In this document: positions 40,210 to 45,380 of the stretch, in pieces
How positions within the stretch are numbered: the stretch's first letter is position 1
How the letters are laid out: the number at the start of each line of letters is the position of its first letter
Source of the DNA: Nocardioides jiangsuensis
Lineage (GTDB): Bacteria > Actinomycetota > Actinomycetes > Propionibacteriales > Nocardioidaceae
DNA: 64,000 bases
Direction of reading: 5' to 3'
Assembly: GCF_019679455.1 (NCBI RefSeq)
Contig: NZ_JAIEZQ010000003.1
Coordinates: forward strand, 1 to 64,000
Notes under the pieces: model-generated
Told to the model about the DNA's origin: nothing
Databases searched by the model: none
What the model saw: only the letters and a program-made list of their open reading frames with translations
Program-made: the position numbers and the translations under genes

Positions 40210-41655
40210 TCAGCCGGCCTCGCACGACCCGTCGGCGAAGACGCACATCTCCCCGGCGATGCTCGCGACATCGGCGTTGAGCTTCGCGGCGGCCGCGTCC
40301 TCACCTGCCGCGGACGAGGAGTCGGAGAGCTGGGCGACGAGCAGGGCACGGCCGACCTGGACGACTCGGGTCAGCGTCCGGCCCGGGACGCGCGTGTCCG
40401 TGTCGTCGGCGTACACCAGGCCGTCGATCCCCAGGACGGCGGGCGAGCCGTCGTACTCCTCCAGCGACCAGCGCATCTCCGAGGGGTCGGTGGGGTCGTC
40501 CGCCGACGTGCCGAGGATCTCGTTGCAGACGACCGCCGAGGATCGCAGCTGCCTCAGGGCGTCGGACGCCGCCTGCTCGGTCCCGAACACCAGCAGGTGC
40601 CGCCAGGCGTTCTCGTCCGGAGGTGATACCTCGACGCGGAAGCTGGCCGTCGGCTGGCTGGGCAGGTTCTCGGGACCGCCGCAGGCGACCGCGGACAGCG
40701 GGTCATCCTCGGTCCACGTCCACTCCGGCACGTCGCCGCCGGGGTTCGGCAGCCCGCGGGCGATCGTCTCCTTGTCGAACGACGCCGACTCCTCGGGGGT
40801 CACGCTCCCGCACGGGCCCTCCATCCACAGGCACCACGCTGCGCGCAGCACCGCCTCGTGGGAGTCCTCGAGCCGCTGCCAGGGCAGGCGCTCCTTCTGG
40901 CTCCGTCCGGACCGCGAGACGAACACCGACCGGCCGACCTGGGTGACGGTGAGGTCGACGAAGAACGGGTGGGAGCCGTCGGCGATGGTGGAGCCCTGGG
41001 CGATCAGCCAGGAGGGCGTGGTCTCGTTGCCGGGGGACCACTCGTAGTTCCAGTCCATCGGCTGAGCGCCGGGAGGTGTGTCAGCCCCTAGGCAGGCATC
41101 GGCCGCCTTCTTGAGCGCGGTGAGAGCGCGGTCGGCGGCCACGTGGTCCTCGTAGACGAACAGCTGCCGGCTCTTGCCCCAGAAGTCACCCTCGACCCAG
41201 ACGCGGCGGGCGGCGGTGCGCCGGTCGTCCCCGGGGAACGTGACCTCCTGTCCGGGGGCCGAGCACGGCAGGCCGTACCAGGACTGGTCGGTGGCGTCGT
41301 CGCGGAGGAGGTCGGTGGAGTCCACCCCTTCGGGGGCGTCGATGTCCTGGGCGACCGGGAAGTCCTCGGGGATCTCGCTCTGGACCGCCGGAGCCGCCGA
41401 GGCAGAGGCCGACGGAGACGGCGACGGGGACGTCGACATGGCAGGGCCTACAGGAGGCTCGGCGCTGGTCAGGTTGCCGGTCACGAACGCACCGCCGGAG
41501 GCGATGACGGCGACGGCTGCGGCGGCACCGACTGCCTGGAAGGCGGTGCGGCGCCGGCGCATCCGGTTGCCGCGGCGGCGGACCTCTGCCGGTGGCAGCG
41601 GGCGTGCGTCCAGGTTGCCGCTGAGGTTCTTCAGCTCGTCGAGGGGGTCACGCAT
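40210..41655 (-). CDS. Single-pass membrane protein encoded with a SigE-type sigma factor
   Basis: This 481-aa protein has a short basic cytoplasmic head (residues 1-38), one membrane helix (about 39-58), a Ser/Pro/Ala linker, and a large outside domain with scattered Cys and Trp. It overlaps the upstream sigma gene by eight bases. Such proteins usually act as the membrane partner or anti-sigma factor; no zinc-type anti-sigma motif is seen in the head, so that role is inferred from position. The outside part repeats a pattern (TVTQVGRSVFVSR, then TRVVQVGRALLVAQL) that also occurs in the fused sigma protein at 43539-45380, suggesting common ancestry. Confidence 0.78.
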   Translation of the reverse strand: MRDPLDELKNLSGNLDARPLPPAEVRRRGNRMRRRRTAFQAVGAAAAVAVIASGGAFVTGNLTSAEPPVGPAMSTSPSPSPSASASAAPAVQSEIPEDFPVAQDIDAPEGVDSTDLLRDDATDQSWYGLPCSAPGQEVTFPGDDRRTAARRVWVEGDFWGKSRQLFVYEDHVAADRALTALKKAADACLGADTPPGAQPMDWNYEWSPGNETTPSWLIAQGSTIADGSHPFFVDLTVTQVGRSVFVSRSGRSQKERLPWQRLEDSHEAVLRAAWCLWMEGPCGSVTPEESASFDKETIARGLPNPGGDVPEWTWTEDDPLSAVACGGPENLPSQPTASFRVEVSPPDENAWRHLLVFGTEQAASDALRQLRSSAVVCNEILGTSADDPTDPSEMRWSLEEYDGSPAVLGIDGLVYADDTDTRVPGRTLTRVVQVGRALLVAQLSDSSSAAGEDAAAAKLNADVASIAGEMCVFADGSCEAG

Positions 41656-42157
41656 GGCTCACTCCTTCCAGGTCGTCGGCGGGGCCGTCGCCGAGCAGCG
41701 ACATGAGGGCGGTGCGGCCGCGGCTGAGGCGGGCCTTGACGGTGCCGACGGGTACGCCGGTCTCGGCGGCGACCTCGACGACGGGCAGGTCGCACATGTG
41801 GTGGAGCACGATCGCCCGGCGCTGGGCCTCGGGGAGCTCGCGCAGGGCATGGACCAGGGCGACGTGGTCGGGGCTGAGCTCGGCTGCGCTCTCGCGGCGC
41901 TGGAGCGCCCGGTCGGGGTCGCGGCGAGCGCGGACCGTGCGCCGCCATCTGCTCACCGCGAGGCGGTACGCCGTGGTGCGCACCCAGGCCTCGGGTGCGT
42001 GTGCCTTCTCCAGCTGGCGACGGTGTGACCACGCCCGGACGAACGCCTCCTGGACGCACTCCTGCGCCTCGTCGCGGTCACCGATCATCGCGTGGATCTG
42101 TCCCACCAGCCGGCTGAAGGACGCGGTGTAGAAGCTGTCGAACTCCTCCGCATCCAT
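41648..42157 (-). CDS. SigE-family ECF RNA polymerase sigma factor
   Basis: This 169-aa sigma factor has only regions 2 and 4. Region 2 includes FDSFYTASFSRLVGQIHAMI and CVQEAFVRAWSH. Region 4 is LPEAQRRAIVLHHMCDLPVVE, followed by the helix-turn-helix GVPVGTVKARLSRGRTAL. It has the FxxFY start typical of SigE-family members. Translation is coupled to the membrane protein that follows. It likely directs a small regulon in response to an outside signal passed through that protein. Confidence 0.92.
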   Translation of the reverse strand: MDAEEFDSFYTASFSRLVGQIHAMIGDRDEAQECVQEAFVRAWSHRRQLEKAHAPEAWVRTTAYRLAVSRWRRTVRARRDPDRALQRRESAAELSPDHVALVHALRELPEAQRRAIVLHHMCDLPVVEVAAETGVPVGTVKARLSRGRTALMSLLGDGPADDLEGVSHA

Positions 42158-42272
42158 GTACTACCCCCGTAGTCGTCGTGGTGCTGCCCGACAGAACGTG
42201 CCGTGCCGTGGGCCGCCCTGCCCTGGTTCTACGCCCCGGCGAGGCGTCCGGTTGCACCCGGATTCGTCACGG

Positions 42273-43517
42273 TCAGGTCACGACGTTCCGGGTGGCGTAC
42301 TCCGGCCGCCGGAACTCCTCCTCCGCCATCACCGCGACTAGGTGGTCCACGGCGTCGTACACGTCGGCGTGGGTGACGTAGAGCGGGGCGAAGCCGAAGC
42401 GGGCCACGTCGGGCGTGCGGAAGTCGCCGACCACCCGGCGGGCGAGCAGGGCCTGCACGATGCCGTACGCGTCGGGGTGGCGCAGCGAGACCTGGCTTCC
42501 GCGCCGGGCGTGCTCGCGGGGCGTGACCACCTCGAGGGCGCCGCCGAGTCGTACGTCGACCAGCTCGATGAAGTAGTCGGTCAGCGACAGCGACGCCGCG
42601 CGCAGCTCGGCCGGGTCGACCCCCTCGAAGACGCCGAGGGCGGCCTCGAGCGCGCTGAGCGCCAGCACCGGCGGGGTCCCCGAGGCGAGGCGGCCGACGC
42701 CGGCGACCGGCTCGTAGCCGAGCTCCATGTCGAACGGGCGGGCGTGGCCCATCCACCCCGAGAGGGGCTGGTCGAGGTCGGCCTGGAGCCGCGGGGCGAC
42801 GTACATGAACGCCGGCGAGCCGGGCCCGCCGTTGAGGTACTTGTAGGTGCAGCCCACCGCGAAGTCGACGCCGGGCCCGACCAGGTCGACCGGGACCGCG
42901 CCCGTCGAGTGGCAGAGGTCCCAGAGGACCAGCGCGCCGGCGTCGTGGGCGGCGCGGGTGACCCCGGGCAGGTCGAGCATCTCGCCGGTGCGGAAGTCGA
43001 CGTGGGTCAGGGAGACCAGCGCGGCGTCCTCGTCGATGGCCGCGACGGGGTCGGCCGAGTCGCACCAGCGCAGCTCGAGGTCGAGCATCCTGGCCACGCT
43101 CGCCGCGATGTAGCCGTCGGTGGGGAAGGTCGCCCGTTCCAGCACGATCGCCCGGCGTCCCGGCCGGAGCCGGCAGGCCGCCACCATCGTCTTGAACAGG
43201 CTGACACTGGTGCTGTCGCTGACCCAGACGTCCTCGCCGGACACCCCGAGGATGCCGCCGATCCGGGCGCCGACCCGGCGGGGGAGGTTGATCCAGTCCG
43301 CGGTGTTCCACGACGAGATGAGGTCGCGCCCCCACTCCGCGGTCACCGTCTCCTGGAGCCGCTCCGGGACCGCCCGGGGCAGGGCGCCGAGGGAGTTCCC
43401 GTCGAGGTAGACGGTGCCCTCGGGCAGCAGGAACAGGTCGCGGCGGTCACGCAGCGGGTTCGCCCGGTCACGGGCGAGGGCGACGTCGCGGTCGAGGTGG
43501 GCGGGGAGTGCAGGCAT
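42273..43517 (-). CDS. kynU: Kynureninase
   Basis: KynU splits kynurenine into anthranilate and alanine in tryptophan breakdown, using PLP. It is 414 aa, normal for the family. Family features are YLDGNSLGALP at the N-terminus, SDSTSVSLFK, LWDLCHSTGAVPVDL and the PLP lysine in GCTYKYLNGGPGSPAF. The rest of the pathway (tryptophan dioxygenase, formamidase) is not in the window. Its start is 21 bases after the stop of the fused sigma gene on the same strand, so it may share that message. Confidence 0.95.
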   Translation of the reverse strand: MPALPAHLDRDVALARDRANPLRDRRDLFLLPEGTVYLDGNSLGALPRAVPERLQETVTAEWGRDLISSWNTADWINLPRRVGARIGGILGVSGEDVWVSDSTSVSLFKTMVAACRLRPGRRAIVLERATFPTDGYIAASVARMLDLELRWCDSADPVAAIDEDAALVSLTHVDFRTGEMLDLPGVTRAAHDAGALVLWDLCHSTGAVPVDLVGPGVDFAVGCTYKYLNGGPGSPAFMYVAPRLQADLDQPLSGWMGHARPFDMELGYEPVAGVGRLASGTPPVLALSALEAALGVFEGVDPAELRAASLSLTDYFIELVDVRLGGALEVVTPREHARRGSQVSLRHPDAYGIVQALLARRVVGDFRTPDVARFGFAPLYVTHADVYDAVDHLVAVMAEEEFRRPEYATRNVVT

Positions 43518-43538
43518 GAGCCGACTCTAGGGCCAGCC

Positions 43539-45380
43539 TCAGGCGAGCTCGCGGAGCCGGTCCGCGGCACGCAGCACCAGGTCGCGGAACTGCACCGGCG
43601 TCATCTCGGCGCTGCCGGCCGGGGCGAAGGTCAGCTGTGCCACGGTCTTGCCGACGCGGACGAAGCCCACGTCGAACCGCACCGTCTCGGAGTCGGAGAC
43701 CTCGGTCTCCAGCTGCCAGGTCGAGGCGTCGAACCCCTCGCGGGCACTGCCGAGCGTCCGGGGCGCGAGCACCTGGGTCGCCAGGTCCCGGTCCTCGCAG
43801 GCGTCGAACCGGCCGCGGATCTCGTCGAGGAACCGCTCGGCGGCGCGGGAGGTGCGGAAGGTGCCGTAGGTCTCCGACAGCCCGAACTGGGGCGGCAACC
43901 GCTCCCCGGGCACGAGGAAGGTCCGGGTGCGGGTACGCGTGGCACCGTCGGCCTTGAAGCTGGCGCGGTCGCAGGTGGTCTCGGACGGGTTCCTCGCGGC
44001 CCCGGTCGGCTCGGTCGCCGCCCACGGCTCGTCCAGGCCCGCGATCGGCGGGAGGTCCACGGTGGCCAGGATCCCTGCCTCCTCGCCCGACGGCGGGGGT
44101 GGGGCGAACCGGGTCCGGGGCTTGGCCGCACAGCCGCCCTCGCCCGCCCGCTCGCAGATCGCCCGGGCCGACGTCGCGAGGACGCCGACCGTCTTGGCGG
44201 CGGGGGCGGAGTCGCCGCGCACGGTCGTGCCGACCGTGGACGTCACGACCTGGCCGACCTGGGCCACCGCGACGGAGTAGCTGGTGGTCGGCCTGGTCCG
44301 CGACTGGAGCTCCAGGACGGTGGCCTGGTCGCCGACCTTGCGGACGTCGAGCGTGCGGCGCAGCTGTAGGCGGCCGTCGGGGCAGCCGGCGTACCAGCCG
44401 ACGGTGGTCGCGTAGGCGTCCTCGGCCTGCTCCCGGGAGGCCGAGATCTCCATGGTCTGGATCGCCGAGCGGCGCGGAGACCCCGACGCCTTGAACTCGC
44501 GGACCATCGCGGAGAGGCCGTCGGGGTCGGCGAACCGGGCCTGCTGGCACACGGTGTTGATGCCGTCGCCGTCTGTGTTGTCGTGGGTGCGGACCACCCG
44601 CCATCGCTGCCCCTTGCCGAGCGCGTCCACGTCGCCGGCGGTCAGCAGGTCGGTCGCCGAGGGCAGGGTGGACCGCTCCTCGGTCACCTGGCCGGTGGAC
44701 TGGCCCCCGGAGCTGCCGGACGGCGGGGCGAGCAGCGGCGCGTCGGCGGAGTCCTCGGCGGTCGGCTCGTGGGCGAAGGCCCCGGAGGCGACGGCGAGGA
44801 AGACCACGGTCGCGGTGGCGACGAGGCTGTGCGAGCGGCGGCGCTTCCGGCCGGCCCGGCGCACGATCGAGGCCCTGGGCAGCGTGGCCTGGCTCGCCGC
44901 GCCGGCCAGGGACAGCAGCCGCGCCCGGAGCCCCGCCGAGTCCGTGTCGAGGGCGACCGCGAGGTTGGCGCTGGCCGCCTGGAGGTTGCGCTCGGCGACC
45001 TCCTGGGGCCAGTTCAGCTCGCGGGCGGCGTCGGCCATGGGTACGCCGGCCAGCTGGATGAGCAGCAGGGCCCGCCGCTGTCCGACGGGGAGCTTGTGCA
45101 GAGCGTCGAGGACCGCGCGGTCGTCGGCGGAGATGTCCTTGGTGCGGTGCCAGAGGCGGGCGGTGTGCCGACGCTGCGCGAGCTGCCAGGCGCGCGGGCG
45201 GACCCAGTCCTGCGGGTCCGGGTAGGACGAAACCTTGCGCCAGTGGTGCCAGGCGGCGACGTAGGCGTCGCGGACCGCGCTCTGCGCCGCGGCCAGGTCC
45301 CCGGTCAGCGCGAACGCCTGGAGCACGAGGGCGCGACGGGTCCCGAGGTAGAAGGAGTCGAACTCCTCCTCCTGAGCCAT
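43539..45380 (-). CDS. SigE-type sigma factor fused to a transmembrane and extracellular domain
   Basis: This 613-aa protein joins what is split in two at 40210-42157. Residues 1-145 are a SigE-type sigma factor: EEFDSFYLGTRRALVLQAF and AVRDAYVAAWHHWRK in region 2, LPVGQRRALLLIQLAGVPMAD in region 4. The recognition helix is weaker than usual (WPQEVAERNLQAASANL). A basic stretch (RRAGRKRRRS) then leads into a membrane helix at about 184-203 and a 400-residue outside domain. The ATG at 45380 is preceded by a G-rich ribosome site. The sigma part is tethered to the membrane unless cut, so activity may need proteolysis. kynU follows by 21 bases. Confidence 0.85.
   Translation of the reverse strand: MAQEEEFDSFYLGTRRALVLQAFALTGDLAAAQSAVRDAYVAAWHHWRKVSSYPDPQDWVRPRAWQLAQRRHTARLWHRTKDISADDRAVLDALHKLPVGQRRALLLIQLAGVPMADAARELNWPQEVAERNLQAASANLAVALDTDSAGLRARLLSLAGAASQATLPRASIVRRAGRKRRRSHSLVATATVVFLAVASGAFAHEPTAEDSADAPLLAPPSGSSGGQSTGQVTEERSTLPSATDLLTAGDVDALGKGQRWRVVRTHDNTDGDGINTVCQQARFADPDGLSAMVREFKASGSPRRSAIQTMEISASREQAEDAYATTVGWYAGCPDGRLQLRRTLDVRKVGDQATVLELQSRTRPTTSYSVAVAQVGQVVTSTVGTTVRGDSAPAAKTVGVLATSARAICERAGEGGCAAKPRTRFAPPPPSGEEAGILATVDLPPIAGLDEPWAATEPTGAARNPSETTCDRASFKADGATRTRTRTFLVPGERLPPQFGLSETYGTFRTSRAAERFLDEIRGRFDACEDRDLATQVLAPRTLGSAREGFDASTWQLETEVSDSETVRFDVGFVRVGKTVAQLTFAPAGSAEMTPVQFRDLVLRAADRLRELA

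Follow-up and report, generated by a model that had tools for sequence, protein, structure and literature searches.

What is a sigma-like domain doing at the head of a membrane protein when an ordinary sigma factor of related sequence lies close by? A 64,000-nucleotide stretch of Nocardioides jiangsuensis DNA (assembly GCF_019679455.1, contig NZ_JAIEZQ010000003.1, positions 1 to 64,000 of the forward strand; hereafter the window) raises this question, as 40210-42157 encodes a sigma factor together with a single-pass membrane protein whose gene overlaps that of the sigma, and one fused gene of 613 aa at 43539-45380 carries both parts in a single chain. All three open frames lie where a preliminary description of the window had placed them. 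In an analysis that was computational throughout, we found that the only full SigE-type factor at the locus is that of the pair. The fused domain is, we think, somewhat more probably than otherwise the cytoplasmic domain of a membrane receptor, descended from a sigma factor and no longer one itself. The parts of both layouts are as follows (P0001, fused chain; P0002, pair membrane protein; P0003, pair sigma).

43539..45380 (-): fused gene, 613 aa, encoding in turn a sigma-like part, the linker, one transmembrane helix and outside domains 1 and 2 (frame; AlphaFold2 model; unbroken in 75 of 80 named loci)
45141..45380 (-): fused chain, sigma region-2-like part (residues 1-80), best conserved (identity medians; Sigma70_r2 score)
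44946..45137 (-): fused chain, sigma region-4-like part (residues 82-145), recognition helix altered (Sigma70_r4_2 score; helix Lys and Arg gone)
44841..44945 (-): fused chain, linker (residues 146-180); split membrane partners have its homologue at their cytoplasmic N-terminus (hhalign)
44772..44840 (-): fused chain, transmembrane helix (about residues 181-203; predicted continuous helix 170-201; model and hydrophobic stretch)
44127..44660 (-): fused chain, outside domain 1 (residues 241-418), PknH/TiME-like predicted fold (PDB 4esq, Z 15.0)
43542..44126 (-): fused chain, outside domain 2 (residues 419-613), related repeat (hhalign, domain 1 versus domain 2)
41648..42157 (-): pair sigma factor, SigE type, intact, 169 aa (TIGR02983; Pfam r2 and r4_2 above cut-off)
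40210..41655 (-): pair membrane protein of 481 aa with one membrane pass and two outside domains (frame; model; PknH/TiME-like second domain)
42230..42255 (-): ECF-type (extracytoplasmic function) promoter ahead of the pair, GCAACC-N16-CGTA (present in 46 of 46 related pairs; the sole such site in the window)
42273..43517 (-): gene between fused gene and pair that we take to be kynU-like, a neighbour outside the module (position)

The fused domain has lost the residues that mark a sigma factor

The pair sigma scored 147.6 bits against TIGR02983 (cut-off 141.55), which places it in the SigE family, and exceeded the Pfam cut-offs for both Sigma70_r2 (40.1 bits) and r4_2 (58.9 bits). Its stop overlaps the ATG of the membrane gene by 8 bases, an overlap found identically in 43 of 46 related pairs. 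The sigma-like N-terminus of P0001 is 35% identical to the pair sigma and reached 55.3 bits with TIGR02983, far below the cut-off; it missed Sigma70_r2 (13.3 bits, cut-off 24) and narrowly passed Sigma70_r4_2 (28.2 bits, cut-off 25.7). A profile check of the kind that the preliminary description had proposed separates the two proteins, and its view that both layouts contain a SigE-type sigma factor holds for the pair and fails for the fused domain.

We compared 93 distinct fused sequences with 63 distinct intact sigma sequences in the numbering of the pair, the fused set having been collected by likeness to the window's protein, whose features it may favour. Region 4.2 of a sigma factor carries the helix that reads the -35 element, and region 2.2 contacts the core polymerase. 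In the -35-reading helix, Lys141 fell from 100% of intact to 0% of fused sequences, Arg143 from 98% to 5%, Arg146 from 100% to 9% and Arg148 from 100% to 5%. Mean net charge of this helix was -1.18 (range -4 to 3) in the fused set versus +3.11 (range 2 to 4) in the intact one, and the basic sequence typical of pair sigmas (GTVKARLSRGR) is missing from the fused domain. Region 2.2 has changed as well: Gln36 was present in 100% of intact and 2% of fused sequences, with Arg substituting in 80%. Of 50 fused proteins, 3 gave a Sigma70_r2 match at E≤0.01, compared with 45 of 45 pair sigmas.

The sigma-type promoter is missing along with the residues

Upstream of the pair sigma, GCAACC followed after exactly 16 bases by CGTA was present in all 46 named loci, starting 60-108 bases before the gene. 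At the corresponding loci of other families, the looser form GCAACC-N16-NGT stood before the leading sigma gene in 8 of 8 cases (counting one gene per locus; the operon-internal second sigma genes of L216 and L219 are without it); it was also present before 8 of 9 further pair-type sigmas, several of them elsewhere in their genomes, the exception being L042. It preceded none of the fused genes (0/75 and 0/50, in sets that have some genomes in common) and none of six sigma-less genes, with shuffled-set controls averaging at most 0.10 matches. A still looser pattern, GCAAC-N17-NGT(A/C), occurred once among the 75 fused upstream regions, in L185 (shuffled sets averaged 0.55). This distribution of the motif suggests that the pair sigma activates its own promoter. 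A genome-wide search with the pair motif gave 6 matches versus 8 for the reversed control; there being no excess, the counts, taken without a look at the context of the other five sites, pointed to no regulon other than the pair's own promoter.

A different hexamer, CACGCC, stands between DUF6350 and the module in 64 of 75 fused upstream regions of 150 bases (any 6-mer in shuffles, at most 34) and may belong to DUF6350, the gene that diverges from the module.

The fused frame is real, and matches to the chain are nearly family-wide

To the preliminary description's call for a check of the junction, the comparative record gives an answer. We fetched 80 loci from named records, covering Nocardioides, Marmoricola, Pimelobacter and metagenome-assembled genomes of the family, order or class, and found that in 75 of them a single unbroken frame covers the sigma part, the outside part and all that lies between, so the join is no local frameshift artefact. 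One of the remaining five stops at a contig end (L188) and four are frame-broken (L182, L183, L184, L187). The break separates the sigma and outside parts in L182 only and falls within the outside part in L183, L184 and L187; neighbouring genes are likewise broken in L182, L184 and L187, not in L183. In one further genome, G064 (L210:5314-7267), the two parts sit in two frames, and purH, purN, DUF6350, kynU, sucD and sucC each match in a single frame, so the split is either a natural fission or a sequencing error. A break that separates the parts, of the kind named in advance as what would overturn the fusion, was seen only in G064, with intact neighbours, and in L182, with broken ones.

P0001 had a match at E≤1e-20 in 205 of 215 genomes of the window's family (Nocardioidaceae), and among the matches listed most span nearly the whole chain. 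Some genomes have two matches; in the one inspected, G080 (L201), both parts share one frame. A profile of the outside part matched 19 of 148 sampled genomes of the class at E≤1e-8, 13 of the 19 in the window's family.

Region 2 is better conserved than the outside domains

Median identity to P0001 was 0.62 in region 2, 0.40 in region 4 and 0.39 in each outside domain (51 rows, among which L030 and L055 represent one gene and L028 is shortened by a contig end). Trp46 and Arg60, in pair numbering, were present in all 93 distinct fused sequences. We then set loci with an adjacent pair beside those lacking one, 7 of the 75 fused loci being set aside. Over four bins of outside-domain identity, region-2 identity was 0.65, 0.75, 0.82 and 0.91 with an adjacent pair (42 loci) and 0.59, 0.69, 0.90 and 0.92 without (26 loci). 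Constraint on region 2 is similar in the two groups, slightly lower without a pair in the two most distant bins; the differences are mixed and small.

Predicted structures show PknH-like outside domains and a possibly closed sigma-like fold

The AlphaFold2 model of P0001 had a mean predicted local distance difference test (pLDDT) score of 89.6, that of P0002 a middling 70.9. Aligned with VIA-align 2, the fused sigma part resembled anti-sigma-bound sigmas (5uxx, Z 16.2; 4cxf, Z 15.1) and PhyR (4qic, Z 12.7), and polymerase-bound sigmas among the matches listed could be fitted to it only at a root-mean-square deviation (rmsd) of about 27. The linker was predicted at pLDDT 96-97, which suggests that it may hold the sigma-derived domain closed.

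Outside domain 1 of P0001 aligned with the PknH sensor domain (PDB 4esq; Z 15.0, 163 aligned residues, rmsd 3.2, about 10% identity) and with TiME (7cu8, Z 13.7), and the second outside domain of P0002, in the weaker model, with 4esq (Z 13.7) and 7cu9 (Z 12.9). Structure prediction, as the preliminary description had advised, thus gives a PknH/TiME-like fold, that of PknH_C (PF14032), in one outside domain of each protein. The PF14032 profile itself matched neither P0001 nor P0002 at E≤1 in Pfam, and a whole-genome search with it was uninformative, returning nothing in the window's genome and nothing in the controls. Foldseek found no PDB match to P0001 under E 0.001 (rank 1 was a thioesterase, probability 0.44), so for P0001 the fold statement rests on VIA-align 2. 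The repeated V-G-x-x-V strings that the preliminary description had seen in both outside parts coincide with strands of this predicted fold.

The fused gene descends from a split pair

The trees and profiles connect the two layouts. In a sigma tree of 80 sequences, including 28 picked of 50 fused domains, the fused domains formed one clade (support 99/91), sister to split sigmas from the same chromosomal place in f4, another family of the order (99/95); the neighbouring pairs branched next, and most other SigE-type sigmas fell outside. The outside parts of fused and pair proteins, said earlier to share a repeated pattern, show no likeness by BLASTP (E 0.59) and are homologous by profile comparison, with a common fold: hhalign scored 93.4 over 335 columns, the reversed control gave 21.6, and none of 20 column shuffles exceeded 23.6. 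Membrane proteins of f4 (three sequences) scored 71.2 against fused domain 1 and 40.2 against domain 2 (reversed, 11.4 and 10.3), and the two fused domains scored 37.2 against each other (reversed, 12.6). The linker in turn matched the cytoplasmic tail of the pair protein (26.4; reversed 17.6, shuffled at most 13.5) and that of the f4 protein (27.0; reversed 12.6). This homology of linker and outside domains to the split partners indicates an end-to-end fusion of a complete sigma/membrane operon.

Gene order leads in the same direction. Nocardioidaceae loci run purH, purN, DUF6350, the oppositely oriented fused gene, sometimes kynU, often the pair, and finally sucD and sucC. The gap from the end of the fused gene to the pair sigma is 73-163 bases in 38 of 42 loci and 945-1477 bases in the other 4. 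The f4 genomes (L050, L051, L053) hold a split sigma/membrane pair at the identical place, and more distant families of the class (f21 and f12; L215, L217, L218) again have split pairs there, two f21 genomes carrying two such pairs in tandem (L216:4040-8094, L219:3894-7930). In f3 (L029, L046, L047, L052) and f2 (L048, L049, L229) the place holds just a membrane protein with outside domains. We tentatively take f2, f3 and f4 to be Propionibacteriaceae, Kribbellaceae and Actinopolymorphaceae. Split pairs at the same place in other families, together with a single fused clade, argue for old paralogues followed by one fusion. Of the earlier proposal of duplication followed by fusion or fission, the paralogous versions and the fusion of an overlapping pair into the long gene stand; fission as the general direction does not, since split pairs hold this place in other families. 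A second, separate fusion of the same kind of module has occurred in Nocardioides iriomotensis, where the neighbouring pair is one frame of 636 aa with intact sigma residues (L036:964-2982; L112 contains the same gene).

The first sigma of L216 and L219 has an altered recognition helix (TVENRLAKAR), yet its gene carries GCAACC-N16-NGT. In an approximately unbiased (AU) test, a shared origin with the fused domains gave p 0.591, the constrained tree being 4.4 log units better than the free one; common origin is neither rejected nor shown by this, as long branches may attract, and the membrane proteins were indecisive.

Several further variants occur at the place. Relatives of the fused gene with no detectable sigma part were seen there in L211, L212 and L213 (genomes G070, G086 and G103), L027 and L054. 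In the sigma-less f2 proteins L048:3165-4925 and L049:4572-6959, the position of the sigma part is taken by a long N-terminal segment that is proline-rich or acidic and contains Thr-rich strings (TTLLPRT). Between sucD and DUF6350, no module gene was found in five family members (G005, G015, G019, G157, G036), and G026 has the pair, kynU and a gene that we presume to be acylase-like. A kynU-like gene recurs at the locus even in distant families (L216, L217, L219, L221, L222), between module and sucD or beside the pair.

A sigma-derived receptor domain and its alternatives

The following course of events would account for these observations. The place between sucCD and DUF6350-purN-purH would ancestrally have held a split module, in which the gene of a SigE-type ECF sigma overlapped that of a single-pass membrane protein; the latter had a short tail in the cytoplasm and outside domains resembling PknH, the module being driven by the sigma's own GCAACC-N16-NGT promoter. 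In the Nocardioidaceae, the copy adjoining DUF6350 would have been fused into one polypeptide, whose sigma part may then have lost -35 recognition, probably normal contact with core polymerase, and the sigma-type promoter, while keeping and sharpening its region-2 surface. The outside domains may detect some cue in the envelope, and the sigma-derived domain would be kept closed by the linker, a descendant of the partner's tail; that domain would act in place through protein contacts, as a sigma mimic or decoy, and not by steering polymerase to promoters. The pair in the window would be an older paralogue, still an ordinary sigma/membrane-regulator system. We hold in even balance the fuller claim that the output domain of this receptor is a retired sigma, fused to its former partner, devoid of promoter recognition and of a self-activating promoter, and constrained above the sensor half across most of the family.

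Several observations weigh against this account. Region 4 of P0001 remains above the Pfam cut-off, and r4_2 was detected at E≤0.01 in 37 of 50 fused proteins (45 of 45 pair sigmas). Helix charge is +1 or more in 10 of 93 fused sequences, from far-diverged genes, and the invariant Arg60 makes some region-2 promoter contact possible. The closed shape of the fused sigma part may be a habit of the predictor. A second sigma tree (82 rows; 28 fused domains plus G064, 7 far SigE rows left out) keeps the fused clade (100/99) and leaves its nearest relative unresolved. In five Nocardioidaceae genomes (G010, G027, G070, G086, G103) the locus carries the outside part with no detectable sigma part, which indicates that the sigma part is dispensable in some lineages.

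The chief rival is that P0001 still works as a sigma factor, tethered to the membrane and changed in its promoter preference, and is freed by regulated proteolysis like IutY or, as proposed, SCO4117. Its parts are ordered as in IutY and the ECF48/52/53 fusions described in PMC8999054 and PMC5826349, and the fused N. iriomotensis pair indicates that normal-sigma fusions can arise here. We nevertheless judge it unlikely: the -35 helix charges and the region-2.2 Gln are gone in nearly all fused members, the sigma-type promoter precedes none of the fused genes in either set, and Pfam finds no zinc-finger domain in P0001 at E≤1. The preliminary description's assumption that the fused domain is a sigma acting tethered or released is not supported, given the same losses of DNA-reading residues and promoter.

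Two further readings, one a decoy directed at the neighbouring pair and the other a vestige, are less likely than such a tethered sigma. A partner-switching sigma mimic, whose fused domain would bind the membrane tail of the adjacent pair and free the true sigma, would suit the short gap to the pair sigma in 38 of 42 loci, the ancestry shared with that sigma and the PhyR-like predicted fold. Many loci, however, hold the fused gene without an adjoining pair, G022 has a fused gene and no SigE-family match above the cut-off, and region-2 identity is similar with and without a pair, the two most distant bins leaving a weak link possible; we therefore find this proposal rather improbable. That the sigma part is slowly decaying while the outside domains carry the function would accord with the f3 and f2 genomes, which hold just the membrane and outside part at the same place, and with the five Nocardioidaceae genomes that have no detectable sigma part. 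Such decay is very doubtful for a chain in which region 2 is the best conserved part and Trp46 and Arg60 are invariant.

Under the preferred reading, a non-sigma receptor domain, this locus departs from the usual practice of judging sigma factors by what they transcribe, as here one seems to have been converted to a signalling domain. Split relatives, the fused form and sigma-less forms coexist at one conserved place, loss of the DNA-reading residues goes together with absence of the promoter, and the route from transcription factor to receptor domain is thereby traceable. Intact and converted copies side by side in culturable Nocardioides offer a ready test pair. Members of the fused family, with a relative in 205 of 215 family genomes, should not be annotated as active sigma factors.

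Comparison with known systems

In the literature searched, partly aimed elsewhere and with most subscription papers outside its coverage, we saw no description of the fused family among the matches listed. PhyR, the anti-anti-sigma of Alphaproteobacteria, likewise has a sigma-derived domain without sigma function and of similar fold. It is a soluble response regulator in which the sigma-like domain is joined to a receiver domain, whereas the fused protein is predicted to be membrane-bound with sensor-like outside domains; Pfam finds no receiver domain in P0001 at E≤1, and the shared feature is the sigma-like fold only.

Closer in architecture are IutY (Pseudomonas putida, ECF243) and other sigma/anti-sigma fusions, which likewise have an N-terminal sigma and a membrane regulator in one chain. 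P0001 is a fusion of this kind in that it joins a sigma-like domain to a membrane part homologous to a split partner, the split membrane partners being presumably anti-sigmas. According to PMC8999054 and PMC5826349, IutY is a sigma fused to a membrane anti-sigma and cut by Prc and RseP. After cutting it is an active sigma, whereas the fused family has no DNA-reading residues and no sigma-type promoter, and has PknH-like outside domains. The actinobacterial fusions ECF48, ECF52 and ECF53 likewise combine a sigma domain, a transmembrane segment and an outside part, and for the ECF52 protein SCO4117 of Streptomyces coelicolor proteolytic release is proposed in the same sources (PMC8999054, PMC5826349). 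These groups are described with a zinc-finger domain, and ECF52 also with a carbohydrate-binding module; Pfam finds neither in P0001, including no ZAS-like zinc finger between sigma part and membrane helix at E≤1. With the mycobacterial PknH sensor domain and TiME, finally, the fused protein has the predicted fold of its outside domain in common, and in P0001 that fold is joined to a sigma-like domain.

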